A stretch of 39,699 bases of DNA from Lentisphaeria bacterium. Lineage in GTDB: Bacteria > Verrucomicrobiota > Lentisphaeria > Victivallales > Victivallaceae. A program made the translations under genes and the position numbers. The stretch lies in NCBI GenBank assembly GCA_017414565.1, contig JAFQLP010000033.1, positions 1 to 39,699 on the forward strand. The letters are read 5' to 3'. The notes beneath the pieces are model-generated. The model made no database searches. It was not told where the DNA came from and saw only the letters and a list, made by a program, of their open reading frames with translations. Position 1 is the first letter of the stretch, and the number at the start of each line of letters is the position of its first letter. Below are positions 26,177 through 39,530 of this stretch, in pieces.

Positions 26177-27875
26177 ACCGCCAGAGAACGGCCGTGGCGC
26201 ACCAGGCCGCCAGTGTCAGCAGGAGGGCGGTTTCGTGCCGGGGCGGCCGGAGCGTCAGCACATGATCCCCCGGCGGACAGGCAAAGATCAGCAGCCGGTC
26301 TTCTTCAAAATCCCGCTGTTCCGGAAACAGCGGCCTGCCGTTGAGCCGCCACCAGCTGCCCGGATTCTGGCTGATGTAGATGCGGTCGGAGGCCGTGGCG
26401 GAAAAACGGATCTCATTGGGACTCCAGAAGGTTTGGCGCGAAGTTCCGTTTTCTGAAAGAAATTCCCCCGCATAGCCCGGATGGCCCGCCGGCCGCCGGG
26501 GCGATACACACCAGTGATCGTAGCCCAGCAGCGGTTCGTAGGAGTCCAGCCGGGAAAGATTGCGGACCACTGAGGCGTAAACATCGTTGGTCCCGTTGTA
26601 ATGGACCGTCAGGATCGGACCGTGAGGCGGTTCCGCGGCGCGTTCAAAAAGGGCCGATTCCGGCTGCCGCGGCAGATCGTACAGCCAGGTGTACCAGTTG
26701 TTGCAGAGCAGGCCGGTCAGCGACAGTCCGGCGAGCAGATACCAGAGCCGGACCGGCCGGGGATAACGCTGTTTCCATTCCGCAAAAGCCGGTGCCGCCG
26801 TGAGGACGAAAAAGAAGAGAAAGGGGATTTTCCAACGGGCAATGGCAAAGAAACTGGTGAATGGCGGAATGTGCCGCAGCCACCAGCCGGGGAGCCACGG
26901 CCGGGTGGCATCGAGCAGCAGCAAAAGGCAGATCAATGCCCCGAAATGCCGCCAGTTCGGGCGGCGGAGCGAAAGCAGAAAGAATCCCGCCGCAATGATG
27001 CCGGTGTAACATCCGATTTCGTGCCATTCCCAGCACAGTTGGCCGCCGACCGCCGCGACCGTGTGGATGGGAATGCCGGGAACCAGCAGGGAACGGAGAA
27101 ATCGCCCGACCGGTATCTGCATCAGAAGATCCATCCGGCGCGGGAAATTCCCCAGCAGTTCCAGGGTCGTCACCAGCCGGTATCCGGCCATTGCCAGCAT
27201 CGCGGCCGCCGCCAGCGCGGCCCGGCGGTAAAAGCACAGATCCCGGCGGTGGCGGTACCAGAGCGGGAGAAAAAATGCCAGGGCGACTGCGGTGTTCATC
27301 AGCGTGAAGTAATGCAGCGAGTGATTCAGCATCAGCCCGGCCGTGAGGCCGCCGGCAAGTGCGTATCCCCGGCTGTCAGGCAGATGCCGGATCAGCCAGA
27401 CCAGCCAGGGCAGAAAAATCACCCCCGCCACGATCCAGTGCCCCTGGTACAGATGCAGATGGATCCCGCCGCTGGCGGCAAACAACATGGCCCCCCAACT
27501 GCGCGGCAGCCGGTCCTGCACATAATCCCCCAGGCAGAAGTACATGCCGACCGCCCCTGTCAGCAGATACAGCACCATGGCCACCCGCCATCCGTACCAG
27601 GTACCGAAAAGAAGGATGCAGGGCAACTCCAGCCCGGTCAGCGCGACCTGCGGATTCGCCGCCAGCGGGGTGCCGCCGTGGAGCCAGGGGGCCCAGAACG
27701 GGAATTGGGCGTATTCGAGGATCGTTTTGCGGACCGATTCGTAGAACGCAAGGAAGAGATCCAGATCGTCCAGAATGGGAAATGTCCCCGGTTGGAGCAG
27801 AAACGGCAGATAGACCAGAAGCGTGAAGCCGGGAACGGCCACCGCCGGTATCAGCCATCTGCCGGGGCATTTCAT
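26160..27875 (-). CDS. YfhO-like polytopic membrane protein (GT-C type)
   Basis: 571 residues with about a dozen hydrophobic helices. After the first helix (IPAVAVPGFTLLVYLPFLL) is a periplasmic loop with DDLDLFLAFYESV and FPFWAPWLHGGTPLAANPQ. The acidic pair and the FW-P-GG-P-NPQ pattern are typical of YfhO and related GT-C glycosyltransferases that use polyprenyl-phosphate sugars. The C-terminal ~150 residues form a soluble domain with a last helix. A role in glycosylating surface polymers is likely but the substrate is unknown. It starts at 27875 with ATGA overlap with the helicase gene. Confidence 0.72.
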   Translation of the reverse strand: MKCPGRWLIPAVAVPGFTLLVYLPFLLQPGTFPILDDLDLFLAFYESVRKTILEYAQFPFWAPWLHGGTPLAANPQVALTGLELPCILLFGTWYGWRVAMVLYLLTGAVGMYFCLGDYVQDRLPRSWGAMLFAASGGIHLHLYQGHWIVAGVIFLPWLVWLIRHLPDSRGYALAGGLTAGLMLNHSLHYFTLMNTAVALAFFLPLWYRHRRDLCFYRRAALAAAAMLAMAGYRLVTTLELLGNFPRRMDLLMQIPVGRFLRSLLVPGIPIHTVAAVGGQLCWEWHEIGCYTGIIAAGFFLLSLRRPNWRHFGALICLLLLLDATRPWLPGWWLRHIPPFTSFFAIARWKIPFLFFFVLTAAPAFAEWKQRYPRPVRLWYLLAGLSLTGLLCNNWYTWLYDLPRQPESALFERAAEPPHGPILTVHYNGTNDVYASVVRNLSRLDSYEPLLGYDHWCVSPRRPAGHPGYAGEFLSENGTSRQTFWSPNEIRFSATASDRIYISQNPGSWWRLNGRPLFPEQRDFEEDRLLIFACPPGDHVLTLRPPRHETALLLTLAAWCATAVLWRYNRKI

Positions 27876-29977
27876 ACCGGAAACTCCAGCGGATACGGGA
27901 GGGCATCGAGAAAGGCCCGGCCGTAACTTTTGGTCAGCACGCGGCGGTCGAGGATGCAGATGATGCCGCGGTCGTTGCGGCTGCGGATCAGCCGTCCGGC
28001 CCCCTGACGGAACCGGAGCAGGGCCGCCGGCAGGGTGTAATCCCGGAAAGCATTGCCGCCATCGGCCGTGATCTGTTCGCACCGGCCCTCGACCAGCGGA
28101 TTGCCGGGGGAGGGAAAGGGCAGTTTGGTGATGATAACATTGCTGAGCGATTCGCCGGGAACATCGACCCCGGTCCAGAAACTGTCGGTCCCGAAAAGCA
28201 CCGAATTGACATCATCGCGGAAGGTGTCAAGCAGTTGGGAGCGGGTCATTTCTTCGCCCTGGATCAGCAGCCGGTAGCGTTTGTCCCGGCAGTGATCCCG
28301 GAGTTCGGCGGCGCAATAGCGCAGATTGCCGTAACTGGTGAACAGGACAAAGGCTTTGCCGCCGGTAAGATCAAGACAGCCGGGCAATTCTCCGGCCAGT
28401 GCCGGCAGATAATCCCGGTCGGTCGGTTCCGGAATGGTGCGGCTGACCCGGATGGTGGCCTGATCGCGGGAAAACGGCGAATCAAGCAGCAGGGTGTCGC
28501 CATTGTCAAACCCGATTCGGCGGCAGAAAAAGTCAAAATTACCGCGGACCGTCAGCGTGGCACTGCTGAGGATCACCGGAAAATCCTGATGGAACAGCAC
28601 CCGGTTCAGGATCTCCGCCACATTGAGCGGAGCCGCCTGGAGCGATACGCCGCCGCGCTCGTACTGCACATAGTAAACCGTTTTGGCCTGTTTCATGGCC
28701 ATGAAGATTTCAAGCCCGTTGATGAAATCCCCGATCCGGTTGAGTTTGGATTCCAGTTCGGTGCGGTAATCGGCCTGATCCTGGGCGGTGGTGTAGTCGA
28801 AAAGCAGCCGGTGCAGGACCTTCAGAGGGGCACTGAGATTGTCTTCAAAGCCGGACATGGAGCGGATCCGGCGGGCGGAACCGTCGCATTCATTCCGGGC
28901 TTCGTGGAGAAATTCCTCAAACTGACGGTAGAAGATCGCCGCTTCGTCCCGTACCGAGGCAATGGTTTGACGCAGAGCCAGTTCCTCCGCCCCCGGCCGG
29001 ATCAGCAGACCGCGGGCGTTGTCCGGATTGAACAGCCGGTTCAATGTGGCAAAGAGCGCGGCCCGGGAAAGATGCAGTCCCAGATGTTCGGCGGCGTTGT
29101 CCTCCAGCGAATGGGCTTCGTCAATGACCACGGTCCCGTAATTGGGCAGCAGGGCACCGGGACTGCCTTCGTTCCGCATGGCCAGATCGGTGAAGAAAAG
29201 CGCGTGGTTGGCGACCACGATATCGGCTTCGGCCCAGCATTGCCGGGCTTTGAAGTAAAAACAGCGGTGAAAATCCCGGCATGCCCCGCCGGGACAATTC
29301 CCCGATTCACAGCAGATTTGCTGCCAGAGCAGCGGATCGGGGCGGAACGGCAGCTCATCGCGTTCCCCGGAAAGCGAGCGTTCCGCCCAGTCAACGATGC
29401 GCGACAATTCCCCGGCAAGCGAGGCCGCCGGAAGCATCATGCCATTTTTCTCCGCTGCCAGCATGGTCAGCCGCCGGAGACACAGGAAATGGCTTTTGCC
29501 TTTGGCCAGCGCGGCTTTGAACGGGACCCCGGTGAGCTGCCGCAGCAGCGGCAGGTCGCGCCGGACCAGTTGTTCCTGCAGATGGATCGTTTCGGTCGTG
29601 ACCACGGTGGGCAGTCCGGGACGGCGCGCCGCCCGGTAGATCAGCGGGATCAGATAGGCGAAACTTTTGCCGACTCCGGTAGGGGCTTCCACCACCAGAT
29701 TGGCCCCGTTGCACAGCGATACCGCGATCTCCCGGGCCATGGCCAACTGCTGGGGACGGAATTCGCATTTGCGCTGTTCCAGCCGGGCGGTCTGCATCAG
29801 AATGCCGCCGGGGGAGAAAAAATGTTCGGATTCCGCGATCAGACCGTCATCGGGCGGGGGCGGCGGAGCCTCGATTTCGTAGGCATCGACATCGAAGGAG
29901 AGATCATCGAGCAATGACTCAACGCTCTCCGGCAGATTGTCTGAAGGTTCCGGTATGCGGTCTGGGATCTGGATCAA
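27872..29977 (-). CDS. dinG: ATP-dependent DNA helicase, DinG/XPD-like
   Basis: 701 residues. Superfamily 2 motifs are present: RPQQLAMAREI (Q motif), VVEAPTGVGKSFAYLIP (Walker A), VIDEAHSLED (DEAH), ILSSATL, FGTDSFWTGVDVPG and RQGAGRLIRS. Four cysteines in CCESGNCPGGACRDFHRCFY and the following KARQCW are placed like the 4Fe-4S cluster of XPD/DinG. It probably unwinds 5'-to-3' on DNA forks, R-loops or damage. There is no nuclease domain. The start is inferred: a TTG at 29977 with GGAG (29984-29987) 6 bases upstream; the only in-frame ATG upstream lies before the promoter. Confidence 0.92.
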   Translation of the reverse strand: MIQIPDRIPEPSDNLPESVESLLDDLSFDVDAYEIEAPPPPPDDGLIAESEHFFSPGGILMQTARLEQRKCEFRPQQLAMAREIAVSLCNGANLVVEAPTGVGKSFAYLIPLIYRAARRPGLPTVVTTETIHLQEQLVRRDLPLLRQLTGVPFKAALAKGKSHFLCLRRLTMLAAEKNGMMLPAASLAGELSRIVDWAERSLSGERDELPFRPDPLLWQQICCESGNCPGGACRDFHRCFYFKARQCWAEADIVVANHALFFTDLAMRNEGSPGALLPNYGTVVIDEAHSLEDNAAEHLGLHLSRAALFATLNRLFNPDNARGLLIRPGAEELALRQTIASVRDEAAIFYRQFEEFLHEARNECDGSARRIRSMSGFEDNLSAPLKVLHRLLFDYTTAQDQADYRTELESKLNRIGDFINGLEIFMAMKQAKTVYYVQYERGGVSLQAAPLNVAEILNRVLFHQDFPVILSSATLTVRGNFDFFCRRIGFDNGDTLLLDSPFSRDQATIRVSRTIPEPTDRDYLPALAGELPGCLDLTGGKAFVLFTSYGNLRYCAAELRDHCRDKRYRLLIQGEEMTRSQLLDTFRDDVNSVLFGTDSFWTGVDVPGESLSNVIITKLPFPSPGNPLVEGRCEQITADGGNAFRDYTLPAALLRFRQGAGRLIRSRNDRGIICILDRRVLTKSYGRAFLDALPYPLEFPV

Positions 29978-30144: not shown

Positions 30145-31230
30145 ATGCGTACACTCAATTGGTATGTCACCCGCGGTTTTCTGTTGTCGTTCTGCATGGC
30201 GATCGTGGTGCTGACATTTGTTATGACCGGTGCGAACCTGGTGCAGGCGATGGATTTTCTTTCCCGCGGGGTGCCGTTTTCGCTGTTTCTGGAGTTCACC
30301 CTCAGTCTGATGCCGCGGGTGCTGACCTTTACGATCCCCTGGGCGGTGCTGGTGGGGGTGATGCTGGTTTTCGGGCGGCTTTCGGCGGATTCGGAGATCA
30401 CTGCCATGCGGGCCTGCGGGGTTTCGCTGCTGCAGATCATGTCGCCGATCCTGATCATTACTTTTGCCCTGACCTGTTTGTGTCTGTATCTGCAGGTCGA
30501 GGTCGGGCCGCCGCTGTTGGGACATTCCCGGGAATTGGCCACCGAAACCATGCTGGATACCCCGGAGGCATTGTTTGAGCCGGGAAGACCGCTGATGTAC
30601 GACAACGCGGCGATCAGCATCATGGACAAAACCGAAGACGGTACGCTGATCGGCGTGCAGATCTATCAGATGGACAAACGCGGTGCCATGGCACTGGATA
30701 TTTCCGCGGCCACCGCCAAATTGCGGGTCGATCATGAACAGCGGCGGCTGATGATCCGGTTGTACGATTGTCTGCTGGTGGACAAAAAATCCAAGCCGGA
30801 ACTGCGTAACGCCCACGCCGAAATGGAATTCGGGTTCGATTACGGCAAAGAACTGAACCGGATCCGGTTGGGGGTCCGTCCCAAGTACATGCGTTTGAAA
30901 GATTTGATGGCGTATATCAAACTGGAACGGATGATGAATCACTCCACGATCAAGGAGGAGATCGAACTGAACCAGCGGATCGCATTTGCGCTGGCACCGA
31001 TGGCGTTTCTGCTGCTGGGGATGCCGCTGGCGATCCGGGCTTCGCGCAAAGAAACTTCGGTCGGGCTGTTTTTGAGTGTGCTGCTGGCGGGTGGATTCTG
31101 TCAGACGATCATCATCTGCAAATCGCTGGAAAACATCCCGCAGATCTATCCGCAATATTTGCTGTGGCTGCCGAACATTCTGTTTCAGGTGGGCGGTGCC
31201 ATCATGATTTACCGGATCAGTCAGAAATGA
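30145..31230 (+). CDS. LptF/LptG family LPS export permease (YjgP/YjgQ)
   Basis: 361 residues. The layout is that of LptF/G: three N-terminal helices (FLLSFCMAIVVLTFVMTGAN, a second with LMPRVLTFTIPWAVLVGVML, a third at IMSPILIITFALTCLC), a periplasmic beta-jellyroll (residues 130-270), and three C-terminal helices (IAFALAPMAFLLLGMPLAI onward). SADSEITAMRACGVSL is the coupling-helix motif that meets the LptB ATPase. The protein moves LPS out of the inner membrane. The ATG follows A7 without any visible Shine-Dalgarno. LptF versus LptG cannot be settled. It overlaps the next gene by ATGA. Confidence 0.9.
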   Translation: MRTLNWYVTRGFLLSFCMAIVVLTFVMTGANLVQAMDFLSRGVPFSLFLEFTLSLMPRVLTFTIPWAVLVGVMLVFGRLSADSEITAMRACGVSLLQIMSPILIITFALTCLCLYLQVEVGPPLLGHSRELATETMLDTPEALFEPGRPLMYDNAAISIMDKTEDGTLIGVQIYQMDKRGAMALDISAATAKLRVDHEQRRLMIRLYDCLLVDKKSKPELRNAHAEMEFGFDYGKELNRIRLGVRPKYMRLKDLMAYIKLERMMNHSTIKEEIELNQRIAFALAPMAFLLLGMPLAIRASRKETSVGLFLSVLLAGGFCQTIIICKSLENIPQIYPQYLLWLPNILFQVGGAIMIYRISQK

Positions 31231-33065
31231 ACCGCAACGGATGGCTGATATTCTGGTTGATACTGCTGTTTGCGGCGGTCTGTTTTTTCGGAATATTGAC
31301 GATCAATGCCATCGACCGGTTGAATGCTTCGGTCCGGGAATGGAAGGCCGGAGCGGAGCGTGCCGGGGCAATGCCGGCGGCCGCCGCACCGGCAGCGGTG
31401 CCGGTCGTTGCCGCGGGTGCGGAACCGGTTGCCAACCGGGCGTACTTCGATCCGGCGGCCGTTGATGGCGGCCGTCTGGTGGCGGCGATCCAGGCCGATC
31501 CGCAGAATCTCAATTATCTGATCAACAACGATGCCGCGACGGCGGAATTTCACGCGCTGGTGAATGCTTCGCTGGCGGCCACCGATTATGCCAATCCCGA
31601 TATCTGGCGGCCGATGATGGCGGAATCGTGGGAGATCTCGGAGGACCGTTTGAGCTACCATATCCGGTTGCGGCGGGGCATCCTGTGGCAGGATTTCACC
31701 GATCCGGTGACCGGGCGGCGGTGGGAAAACCGCGAGGTGACGGCGCATGACTTCAAATTTTTCATTGATGTCATCCGGAATCCGCAGGTGAATTGCGAGC
31801 CGTTGCGGGTCTATTATCAGGATCTGGATGGGATCGAGATCCTCAATGATTACGAATTCGTGGTCCGGTGGAAACGGAAATTTTACGGATCGCTCCGGTG
31901 TACCCTGGGGATGTCGCCGCTGGCCCGGCATCTGTATGCCGATTACCCGGAACCCTTCGACGGAGCCCGGTTCAATGAAGACAATGCCCGCAACCGGATG
32001 ATCGTGGGGTGCGGACCGTACCGGTTCGATCGCTGGGAAAAAGATGTGCGGGTGGTTTTTGTCCGCAATGAACAGTATTTCGGCAAACAGCTGGGGATCG
32101 CCCCGGCTTTGAAATACCGGGTCTTTGAGATGATCAAACTGCCGAATACCCGTTTTCAGGCATTGCTGGCCGGGCGGTTGGATCTGCTGGGGCTGACGCC
32201 GGAGCAGTGGGAACGGCGCACGGATATTCCGGAATTCGCCGATGGAAAATTGAAAAAATTCCAGTATCCGGGCCATGTTTACACCTACATCGGATACAAT
32301 CTCAAACTGCCGCTGTTTCAGGATTGCCGGGTGCGTCAGGCACTGACGATGCTGGTGGATCGGGAAAAGATCCTGCGGGATATTTACTGCGGGCTCGGAT
32401 TGGTTGCCACCGGACCGTTTTTCCCGGGCAGTCCCTATGCCGATCCGGCGATCAAACCGTGGCCGTTTGATGTGGCGGCGGCCCGGAAACTGCTGGCGGA
32501 AGCCGGTTGGCGCGATACCGATCAGGATGGTATTCTGGACCGGAACGGCGAAAAATTCAGTTTCACGATCATGCAGGTGGCATCGCATCCCCTGTAGCAG
32601 CGGATGCTGCCGATGATCAAGGAGACCATGGCTCTGGCGGGGGTGGAAATGAAGATCCAGCCGCTGGAGTGGTCGGTTTGTCTGCAACGGCTTCAGGAGC
32701 GAACCTTTGAAGCCTGCACGCTGGGGTGGACCTTGCCATCGGACCCGGACCCCTATCAGGTCTGGCATTCCTCCATGGCGGATGTGCCCGGTTCCAGCAA
32801 CCATATCGGGTACAGCAATCCGCAGCTCGACCGGTTGATCGAGGAATTGCGCGGTACCTTCGAGCGTGACCGCCGGGTGGAATTGTGCCGCGAGATCGGG
32901 GCGATCCTGCACGAGGACCAACCCTATACATTTCTGTTTGTTCCGATGACACTGACGGCCCTGTCGGGGCGTTACCGCAATGTGCGGGTGTTTCCGGATA
33001 CAGGGCTTGCCGTTGAAATTTTCTGGGTGCCTGCCGCTGAACAGCGGGCCGTGCCCGGTTTGTAA
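31227..33065 (+). pseudogene. Family 5 solute-binding protein interrupted by an in-frame TAG
   Basis: One continuous frame of 613 codons, starting in the ATGA overlap with lptF, is split by a TAG at codon 457 (32595-32597). The N-terminus has a membrane anchor (WLIFWLILLFAAVCFFGIL) and an Ala/Pro linker. The binding-protein body follows: PMMAESWEISEDRLSYHIRL, NRMIVGCGPYRFDRWEK, IGYNLKLPLFQDCRVRQAL. After the TAG the family sequence continues without loss (MLPMIKETMALAG, then GYSNPQLDRLIEELR to AVEIFWVP). It should bind peptides or similar ligands in the periplasm. Without readthrough the product lacks its last ~155 residues and is probably inactive. No permease genes are adjacent. Confidence 0.85.
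32595..32597 (+). other. In-frame amber codon in the solute-binding protein gene
   Basis: The context is CTG TAG CAG CGG. Coding character and family similarity continue in the same frame directly after it. A single C-to-T change in a CAG (Gln) codon would explain it. Other genes here (dprA, dnaJ, the FolM-like reductase) end in TAG, so TAG is a normal stop in this organism. Confidence 0.9.
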
Positions 33066-33081
33066 AGACCAAGGAGGAAAA

Positions 33082-33885
33082 ATGAGTATCAAAGTTACGG
33101 TGATCGGTGCTGCAGGGCGTATGGGACGCCGGTTGGTGGCCCATATTCTCGAAGCCTCTGATATGCAGTTGGCCGGGGCCATCGAATACGCGGGATCCCC
33201 GTTTATCGGACAGGATGCCGGGGTGTTGGCCGGGGTGCAGCCGGCGGGCGTTGCCATATCGTCCGATCTGGCGGCGGTGCTGGATGTGAGCGATGCGGTC
33301 ATTGATTTTGCCACCGGGCATGTGATCGAGGATGTGACCGCGGCGGTCAAGGCCGGTTGCAGTGCCGTGGTCGGCACAACGGCATTGACGGCGGAAATGA
33401 AGTCGCAATTGGCCGGATTGAGTGCCGATGGCGGCCGTCTGGTGGTGGCTTCCAATATGAGTGTCGGGGTCAATCTGCTGTTCAAACTGGCGGCGGAAGC
33501 GGCCCGGCTGCTGGACGGGTACGATATTGAGATCGTGGAAATGCACCACAACCAGAAAAAAGATGCCCCCTCCGGTACGGCGGTGCGGCTGGCCGAGATC
33601 ATCTGCGAAAGCACCGGGCGCGATTACGATACCGATGTCCGGCACGGCCGGGAAGGCATGGTCGGCGCGCGGACGGCGCGGGAGATCGGGATGCACGCTC
33701 TCCGCGGCGGTGATGTAGTCGGCGATCACACCGTGGTCTTTGCCGTCGGCGGGGAACGGGTGGAATTGACCCACAAGGCATCCAGCCGTGATACCTTTGT
33801 CATGGGGGCGTTGCGGGCGGTCCGTTTTCTGGCGGCGGCGAAGCCGGGGTTGTATGATATGCAGGATGTGCTCGGACTCAAATGA
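33082..33885 (+). CDS. dapB: 4-hydroxy-tetrahydrodipicolinate reductase
   Basis: 267 residues, normal length. It reduces HTPA to tetrahydrodipicolinate in the lysine and diaminopimelate pathway with NAD(P)H. The nucleotide loop is VIGAAGRMGRRLV, the central signature is VEMHHNQKKDAPSGTAVRLA, which holds the catalytic His and the substrate Lys, and ASNMSVGVNLLFKL precedes it. AGGAGG lies 4 bases before the ATG at 33082. The stop overlaps the lpxB start (ATGA). Confidence 0.96.
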   Translation: MSIKVTVIGAAGRMGRRLVAHILEASDMQLAGAIEYAGSPFIGQDAGVLAGVQPAGVAISSDLAAVLDVSDAVIDFATGHVIEDVTAAVKAGCSAVVGTTALTAEMKSQLAGLSADGGRLVVASNMSVGVNLLFKLAAEAARLLDGYDIEIVEMHHNQKKDAPSGTAVRLAEIICESTGRDYDTDVRHGREGMVGARTAREIGMHALRGGDVVGDHTVVFAVGGERVELTHKASSRDTFVMGALRAVRFLAAAKPGLYDMQDVLGLK

Positions 33886-35054
33886 TCATGCGTCATTACT
33901 GGATCATAGCCGGAGAGACCTCCGGGGATATTTACGGGGCCCGGCTCGGTCGGGAATTGATCGAACTGGGGCGTCAGCACGGCGAAGAGGTCCGTATTTC
34001 CGGCATGGGCGGTGCCGCCATGCGGAAGGCGGGCTTCGATCTGAAGGTTGACTCCACGGAACTCGGGGTGGTCGGGATCTTTGAAGTGCTCGGCCTGATC
34101 GGGACGTTCATCCGGATTTTTTTCCGGCTGCTCAAAGAGGTGGAGCAGGAACGGCCGTCGGCGGTGATCCTGATCGATTATCCGGGATTCAACCTGCGTT
34201 TTGCCAAGCGTTTGCACCGGATGGGCATTCCGGTGATCTGGTATGTGTCGCCCCAGGTGTGGGTGTGGGGCAAAAAACGGCTGCCGGTATTGGCGGAGGT
34301 CTGCTCCAAAATGCTGGTGATTTTCCCTTTCGAGGTCGATGTTTACCGGCCGACCGGACTGGAGGCGGAATTTGTGGGGCATCCTTTAATCGACCTTTAC
34401 CGGGAACGGTGTGATCTTTCGATCGTCCGTGATCCCAATCTTTTTCTGCTGCTGCCCGGCAGCCGGAAACTGGAGGTCGCCCGGCTGCTGCCGCGGATGC
34501 TGGCAACCATTACCGGGGTGGCCAAAAAACATCCGGAGATGCGGTTCGTGCTGACATCGCCGCGGGAACGGGTGACGCAGCAGTGCCGCGAGATCGATGC
34601 GGCATTCCGGAAACGGCACCCGGATACGCCGCCGGTGGAATTCATCACCGGCCGCTCGGCGGAATTCCAGCAGCGGGCCGGGACCGGATTGGCGGCCAGC
34701 GGGACGGTGACGGTGGAAGCTGCGATCGCCGGCTTGCCGCTGGTGGTGGTTTACCGCATGAGTCTGCCGACACTCCTGATCGGTCTGGTGCTGGTGAAAT
34801 TGTACCGCGGATTCTTTACCATGACCAATATCATTGCCGGTTGGCGGGTGTACGAAGAATTCCTGCAGTGGCGGGTGCATCCCCGGCGGCTGATCCCGGC
34901 GGTGGAGCGGATCCTGCCCGGCGGTTCCCGGCGGCAGGAGGTGGAACGCGGGATGGCGGAAGTCCGGCATTTGCTTGAGCCGTCGCGGGACAGTGCCCTG
35001 CAACAGGCGGCCGAGTCCTGCTGGATGTTGCCGGTCGATAAAAAGGAGCTGTAA
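33882..35054 (+). CDS. lpxB: Lipid-A-disaccharide synthase
   Basis: 390 residues. It joins UDP-2,3-diacylglucosamine and lipid X to form the lipid A disaccharide at the inner membrane (GT19 family). Motifs are YWIIAGETSGDIYGARL (usually GEASGD), ILIDYPGFNLRFAKRL, WYVSPQVWVWGKKR, VGHPLID, LLLPGSRKLEVARLLP and AASGTVTVEAAIAGLP. The ATG overlaps the dapB stop. The LPS theme fits lptF upstream in the same unit; the first lpx genes are not in the window. Confidence 0.95.
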   Translation: MIMRHYWIIAGETSGDIYGARLGRELIELGRQHGEEVRISGMGGAAMRKAGFDLKVDSTELGVVGIFEVLGLIGTFIRIFFRLLKEVEQERPSAVILIDYPGFNLRFAKRLHRMGIPVIWYVSPQVWVWGKKRLPVLAEVCSKMLVIFPFEVDVYRPTGLEAEFVGHPLIDLYRERCDLSIVRDPNLFLLLPGSRKLEVARLLPRMLATITGVAKKHPEMRFVLTSPRERVTQQCREIDAAFRKRHPDTPPVEFITGRSAEFQQRAGTGLAASGTVTVEAAIAGLPLVVVYRMSLPTLLIGLVLVKLYRGFFTMTNIIAGWRVYEEFLQWRVHPRRLIPAVERILPGGSRRQEVERGMAEVRHLLEPSRDSALQQAAESCWMLPVDKKEL

Positions 35055-38426: not shown

Positions 38427-39530
38427 ATGGGATTTGACAACGGAAGTGTGACTTTTTCGATCTTTGAACTCAATGGTGAACTGCCGGCGGATGCGGTCGA
38501 ACTCTTTGCCGCCCGGAAAGCCGGTACGCTGGACAGCGTCAGCAGCGATCCCGAAGCGGAACCCCAGGTCGGCTGGGTGACCGGCCGGCATCTGCTCGAC
38601 AACGTGATCGACGATGTTTCGATCCATTGCGGCACCTGGCTGCATGTGGCCATGCGGACCGCCTGCCGGAAGTTGCCGGCATCGCTGCTGCAGGCGTTCT
38701 GCCGCCGCGAGGAGCAGGCGTATCTGGAGGTCAACCATGCGGATTTTGTGCCGGGTAAGAAACGGCGGGAGATCCGCGAAAGCGTGATCGCCCGTTATCT
38801 GCCGATGATGACACCGTCGCTGTCGGCATTGCCGGTTCTGATCGATCCGGCGGCGGGGGAGATGTATCTGGGAACGGGGTCTCCGGCCAAGATCGAAAGT
38901 TTTACCGATTTCTTTTATTCGACGCTCGGCGTTGATTTTGTGCAGTGGACTCCGGCGACGATGCTGGACCGGTTTTTCCAGACCACCGAGGCGGCGTTTC
39001 CGGCGATCCGTTTTGCCGATGTGCCGGGTGACGGCGAACCGGTGATCGGGCGCGATTTCCTGACCTGGCTCTGGTATTACAGCGAAACGACCGGCAAGAT
39101 CACCACCGAAGACGGGGAATTCGATCTGCTGATCGAGGGGCCGCTGACACTGGTGGATGCCTCCGAAGCCAATGGGGCCGAGGAAACGGTGATCCGCAAA
39201 GGCAACAGCCCCCAGCGCAGTGCCGAAGCAAAATCGGCTCTGGCGACCGGGAAAAAACTCAAAAAAGCGAAATTTTCGCTGACCCGCGATCCCGAGATCT
39301 GGAGCGGCACATTCGATGCTGACACATTCTCCTTCAGTTCGGTAAAATTGCCGGAAGGAGAGGCCATGGAGTCATTTGACCGGTTCCGGGAACGGCAGGA
39401 ATTCCTGCAGATCTTCAAGGGTGCCATGGAGGCATATTTTAAGGTTTTTGCCGGGACATTTCTGAAAGGCGATGCCGATAAGGCCATGAAACAGCTTCAG
39501 GAATGGGCCGCCGGACGGGATGCCATCTGA
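38427..39530 (+). CDS. RdgC-like recombination-associated protein
   Basis: 367 residues. Similarity to RdgC is judged by eye. A short N-terminal strand pattern is followed by VGWVTGRHLLD (RdgC: GWVPP), a basic region KKRREIRESVIARYLPMM (RdgC: LLPRAF), a strand VLIDPAAGEMYLGTGSPAKIE like the RdgC segment with VDCAS, and a C-terminal block SAEAKSALATGKKLKKAKFSL that resembles the GK-containing end of the ring-forming domain. E. coli RdgC binds DNA as a ring and limits RecA. This is a divergent homologue at best. AAAGGA precedes the ATG. It may be cotranscribed with carB and is closed by a terminator. Confidence 0.6.
   Translation: MGFDNGSVTFSIFELNGELPADAVELFAARKAGTLDSVSSDPEAEPQVGWVTGRHLLDNVIDDVSIHCGTWLHVAMRTACRKLPASLLQAFCRREEQAYLEVNHADFVPGKKRREIRESVIARYLPMMTPSLSALPVLIDPAAGEMYLGTGSPAKIESFTDFFYSTLGVDFVQWTPATMLDRFFQTTEAAFPAIRFADVPGDGEPVIGRDFLTWLWYYSETTGKITTEDGEFDLLIEGPLTLVDASEANGAEETVIRKGNSPQRSAEAKSALATGKKLKKAKFSLTRDPEIWSGTFDADTFSFSSVKLPEGEAMESFDRFRERQEFLQIFKGAMEAYFKVFAGTFLKGDADKAMKQLQEWAAGRDAI

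Follow-up and report, generated by a model that had tools for sequence, protein, structure and literature searches.

The window, the whole stretch of 39,699 nucleotides that was analysed, comes from a gut-type bacterial genome and contains a gene for a membrane-anchored family 5 solute-binding protein (SBP_bac_5) whose single reading frame is interrupted by one TAG. In other respects the gene is normal, and the interruption is probably a nonsense substitution of glutamine codon 457 that is either very recent or still polymorphic.

Results

Homology of the SBP_bac_5 frame is continuous across the TAG

The interrupted gene, its parts and its neighbors are positioned as follows, with the basis of each assignment in parentheses.

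30145–31230, plus strand: LptF/LptG permease gene, upstream, intact, the same neighbor in relatives (profile search, locus comparison)
31227–33065, plus strand: SBP_bac_5 gene, membrane-anchored family 5 solute-binding protein with one internal TAG (translation, PF00496 match, orthologues; N-terminal hydrophobic stretch by eye)
32595–32597, plus strand: in-frame TAG, codon 457; 33 of the 36 relatives aligned have a glutamine codon here (translation, alignment)
32598–33062, plus strand: undecayed 155 codons 3′ of the TAG (alignment, neutral simulation)
32604–33065, plus strand: open reading frame from the conserved Met 460, where reinitiation is possible but unlikely (ORF list, profile search, by eye)
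33082–33885, plus strand: dapB, downstream, intact, the same neighbor in two of three relatives compared (profile search, locus comparison)
33882–35054, plus strand: lpxB, intact (profile search, locus comparison)

In translation the frame at 31227–33065 is composed of 612 residues with one internal stop, at codon 457. With the TAG set to X, the match to PF00496 spans residues 128–513 and scores 237.8 bits against a gathering score of 32.4, which places the protein in the SBP_bac_5 family; the part before the stop scores 202.5 bits by itself. The alignment with AppA (1xoc) covers residues 80–600 and is gap-free at the TAG site. A chance join was rejected, given one internal stop in the coding frame versus 23 and 12 stops in the other two plus-strand frames across the gene, and 55 relatives that encode the protein across the site. 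The frame is a single SBP_bac_5 gene with one internal stop, as the sequence-only reading had described it.

The order of permease and binding protein is the same in all three relatives compared, with dapB and lpxB next in two of them and no dapB or lpxB match in the third (L183). On the minus strand, a 797-codon open frame (31221–33614) lies antisense to the whole binding-protein gene and runs into dapB; other genes here also face long antisense frames of this kind, and base composition is probably the cause. Elsewhere in the window, positions 38427–39530 encode a protein with a weak RdgC match confined to its first part (30.7 bits, cut-off 25), and a 441-codon open frame at 26601–27926 with no Pfam match may be a real gene or a chance frame.

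Most aligned relatives carry a glutamine codon at the site of the TAG

Orthologues were searched for in 60 relatives and in the window's own genome, the only one of its genus in the comparison. An orthologue spanning residue 457 was found in 55 of the 60; in G002 the orthologue comprises the first 240 residues only, and the remaining four relatives gave no match or weak paralogues. None of the 55 orthologues spanning the site contains an internal stop. A TGA in G016, considered as a second in-frame stop, was rejected because it is the normal terminator of that gene, at codon 607 of the sequence examined. The fetched stretch of L039 has two stops, at its residues 588 and 590, close to the C-terminal end.

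The codon alignment comprises 36 relatives; L032, L033, L034 and L041 were left out as lying on the same contigs as L003, L004, L005 and L008, and also outside it are the more distant loci L042–L069 and L071–L111 and 26 further orthologues for which no locus was returned (G016 among them, read singly). Aligned codon 457 encodes glutamine in 33 of the 36, as CAG in 26 and CAA in seven, with leucine, isoleucine and alanine in one relative each and a stop in none. CAG, which had been expected here, is one transition away from TAG. On the sequences compared, the TAG is a singleton, confined to the window genome among the relatives examined. The disabling change is absent from relatives (0 of 55 orthologues, 0 of 36 aligned), as in a recent pseudogene; related species would be expected to share a programmed readthrough stop at this position, and none of these sequences has it. 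Viral contigs searched for the same DNA stretch gave no match.

The part after the stop is undecayed

The sequence-only reading also held that family-like sequence resumes in the same frame with no loss, and conservation on both sides of the stop bears this out. Where at least 90% of the 36 relatives agree on a residue, the window protein has kept it at 91 of 94 positions before the stop (residues 70–456) and at 37 of 37 after it (residues 458–600); for invariant positions in the same two ranges the counts are 29 of 30 and 16 of 16. The eight closest relatives compared share 59–66% identity with the window protein before the stop and 62–72% after it. In a neutral simulation the 155 post-stop codons were mutated, and the outcome scored was no new stop together with no loss among the 37 conserved positions; divergences of 1%, 3% and 5% gave this outcome a chance of 0.40, 0.06 and 0.008, respectively. 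More than about 3–4% neutral divergence since the stop arose is unlikely according to this simulation. An undecayed remainder combined with such low simulated survival indicates that the TAG is recent, is not real, or is read through.

The genome reads TAG as a stop

The window is one contig of a 2.01 Mb draft genome in 183 contigs, 96% complete. Release factor 1 (RF1) is present (472.6 bits against a cut-off of 423), dprA ends in TAG directly after its winged-helix domain, and a dnaJ-like frame, its J-domain recognized by eye, also ends in TAG. No CUA anticodon occurs among the 39 tRNA genes, all of them typed; His and Ile tRNAs are absent from this set, so the draft is incomplete and leaves some room for a suppressor tRNA on a missing piece. 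Both glutamine tRNAs, CUG and UUG, are present. No PylS scored above the cut-off of 178 bits, the best match reaching 24.5. Among 45 matches to three transport families in the genome (33, 3 and 9), the TAG in the window is the sole internal stop; a TGA in a permease on C85, considered as a second one, was rejected as a natural terminator. A codon-usage scan of the window and 17 genome stretches for further stops within coding frames did not discriminate, with antisense frames scoring like genes and the known TAG missed, and its 43 hits carry no weight.

TAG is thus an ordinary stop in the window genome. A TAG-recoded genome would be marked by a suppressor tRNA, loss of RF1 and TAG no longer serving as a terminator, and none of these was found in the draft. 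Reassignment of TAG to glutamine or pyrrolysine has in its favor the glutamine at the aligned site in relatives, but is contradicted by RF1, by the ends of dprA and dnaJ and by the tRNA and PylS searches, and can be given next to no credence. The earlier judgment that general TAG recoding is unlikely is therefore supported, and the search for tRNA-CUA or pyl genes that it had proposed was negative within the 39 tRNAs and for PylS.

Discussion

Alternative explanations for the TAG

Two of the rival explanations are a split gene and functional readthrough. In the first, each half would be translated on its own, with ribosomes restarting for the second half at the in-frame ATG at 32604, six bases after the stop. 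The location of this ATG just 3′ of the stop fits such an arrangement, but the methionine belongs to ordinary sequence in most intact relatives, no Shine–Dalgarno-like sequence is visible by eye in the 25 bases before it, and the second half would start inside the domain, without the hydrophobic stretch of the N-terminus, and gives no Pfam match by itself; we regard a split gene as very improbable. In the other, UAG would be decoded as glutamine often enough to give a selected full-length protein, perhaps lowering expression. UAG-CA, cited in the sequence-only reading as a leaky context in other systems, is a plant-virus and eukaryote rule. The base following the TAG is C, and PMC5289835 reports for yeast that C at +4 increases readthrough at each of the three stop codons. 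The same paper reports that tRNA-Gln misreads UAA and UAG in E. coli, and both glutamine tRNAs are available here; such misreading would restore the family residue, which makes some full-length protein plausible. Low-level glutamine readthrough of this kind is possible and would be ordinary. The undecayed remainder also favors functional readthrough, as does the argument of Belinky et al. (2021, PMC7918605) that bacteria commonly carry in-frame stops under purifying selection. Against it stand the absence of the TAG from every relative compared, the presence of RF1 and, less clearly, the RNA 3′ of the stop: it is mildly more stable than shuffled sequences (z −2.0, 5 of 200), but its folding is equalled by 28 of 193 windows within this gene and by 135 of 660 over the whole window. 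Functional readthrough is accordingly unlikely, and it is more doubtful still that tRNA-Gln reads a real stop at a useful rate and that the lineage holds down expression of a transporter gene by means of this UAG.

A consensus or assembly error, in which the draft carries a wrong base and the gene of the organism is intact, is a more serious alternative, although it too is on the unlikely side. A draft in 183 contigs, a single substitution with no decay, and one internal stop among 45 family matches, as a rare random error would give, all agree with it; the neighboring permease, dapB and lpxB, which show no stop or break relative to relatives, argue against it. A base error would look identical to a real recent mutation. 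Of the three options offered by the sequence-only reading, recent nonsense mutation and assembly error both stand, whereas readthrough finds no positive support beyond the undecayed remainder. Recent mutation or polymorphism is the most likely explanation and base error the next, and both are ordinary.

Predicted consequences of a recent nonsense change

A recent nonsense change would have converted glutamine codon 457 to TAG by one substitution, very recent or still polymorphic, and translation would stop after 456 residues to give a product without its last 155. Absent readthrough, residues 457–612 are lost. They comprise the end of the PF00496 match, which extends to residue 513, and a C-terminal segment whose alignment with AppA continues almost to its end; we infer from this that the truncated protein would not bind substrate and is most likely non-working. 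A trace of full-length protein might still be made where a glutamine tRNA misreads UAG. The TAG, its absence from relatives, the undecayed remainder and a normal termination machinery are observed, and it is our inference that the organism truly has this base, that the change is recent and that the product is inactive. Two other PF00496 proteins are encoded in the genome, on C7 and C10, which suggests that the loss could be tolerated; that on C10 adjoins two permease and two ATPase matches. This locus (L187, G000:C10:4000-12000) is a peptide-type ABC cluster with a family 5 binding protein, two permeases and two ATPases, and it could provide transporter components that are absent next to the window gene. 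Against a recent loss, the gene spans the site in 55 of 60 relatives, so losing it would be unusual.

The TAG is most simply attributed to a recent mutation or a base error, not to a novel decoding of the genetic code, and it matters little beyond annotation, where gene callers will split or truncate the gene. If readthrough were true, the gene would add to the cases behind the contention that bacterial in-frame stops often spare genes.

Comparison with known systems

The window gene shares with AppA (1xoc), DppA (1dpp) and the PF00496 family 5 solute-binding proteins a homology that crosses the TAG; unlike AppA and DppA, its frame is interrupted, it has an N-terminal hydrophobic anchor (by eye) and it sits between an LptF/LptG-type gene and dapB. 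With the in-frame stops of Belinky et al. (2021, PMC7918605) it has in common an in-frame stop followed by an undecayed remainder, but the stop here is present in one genome only. Recent bacterial pseudogenes and nonsense polymorphisms likewise consist of a conserved gene, complete in all else, in which a single base change has created a stop, and no difference from them was observed.
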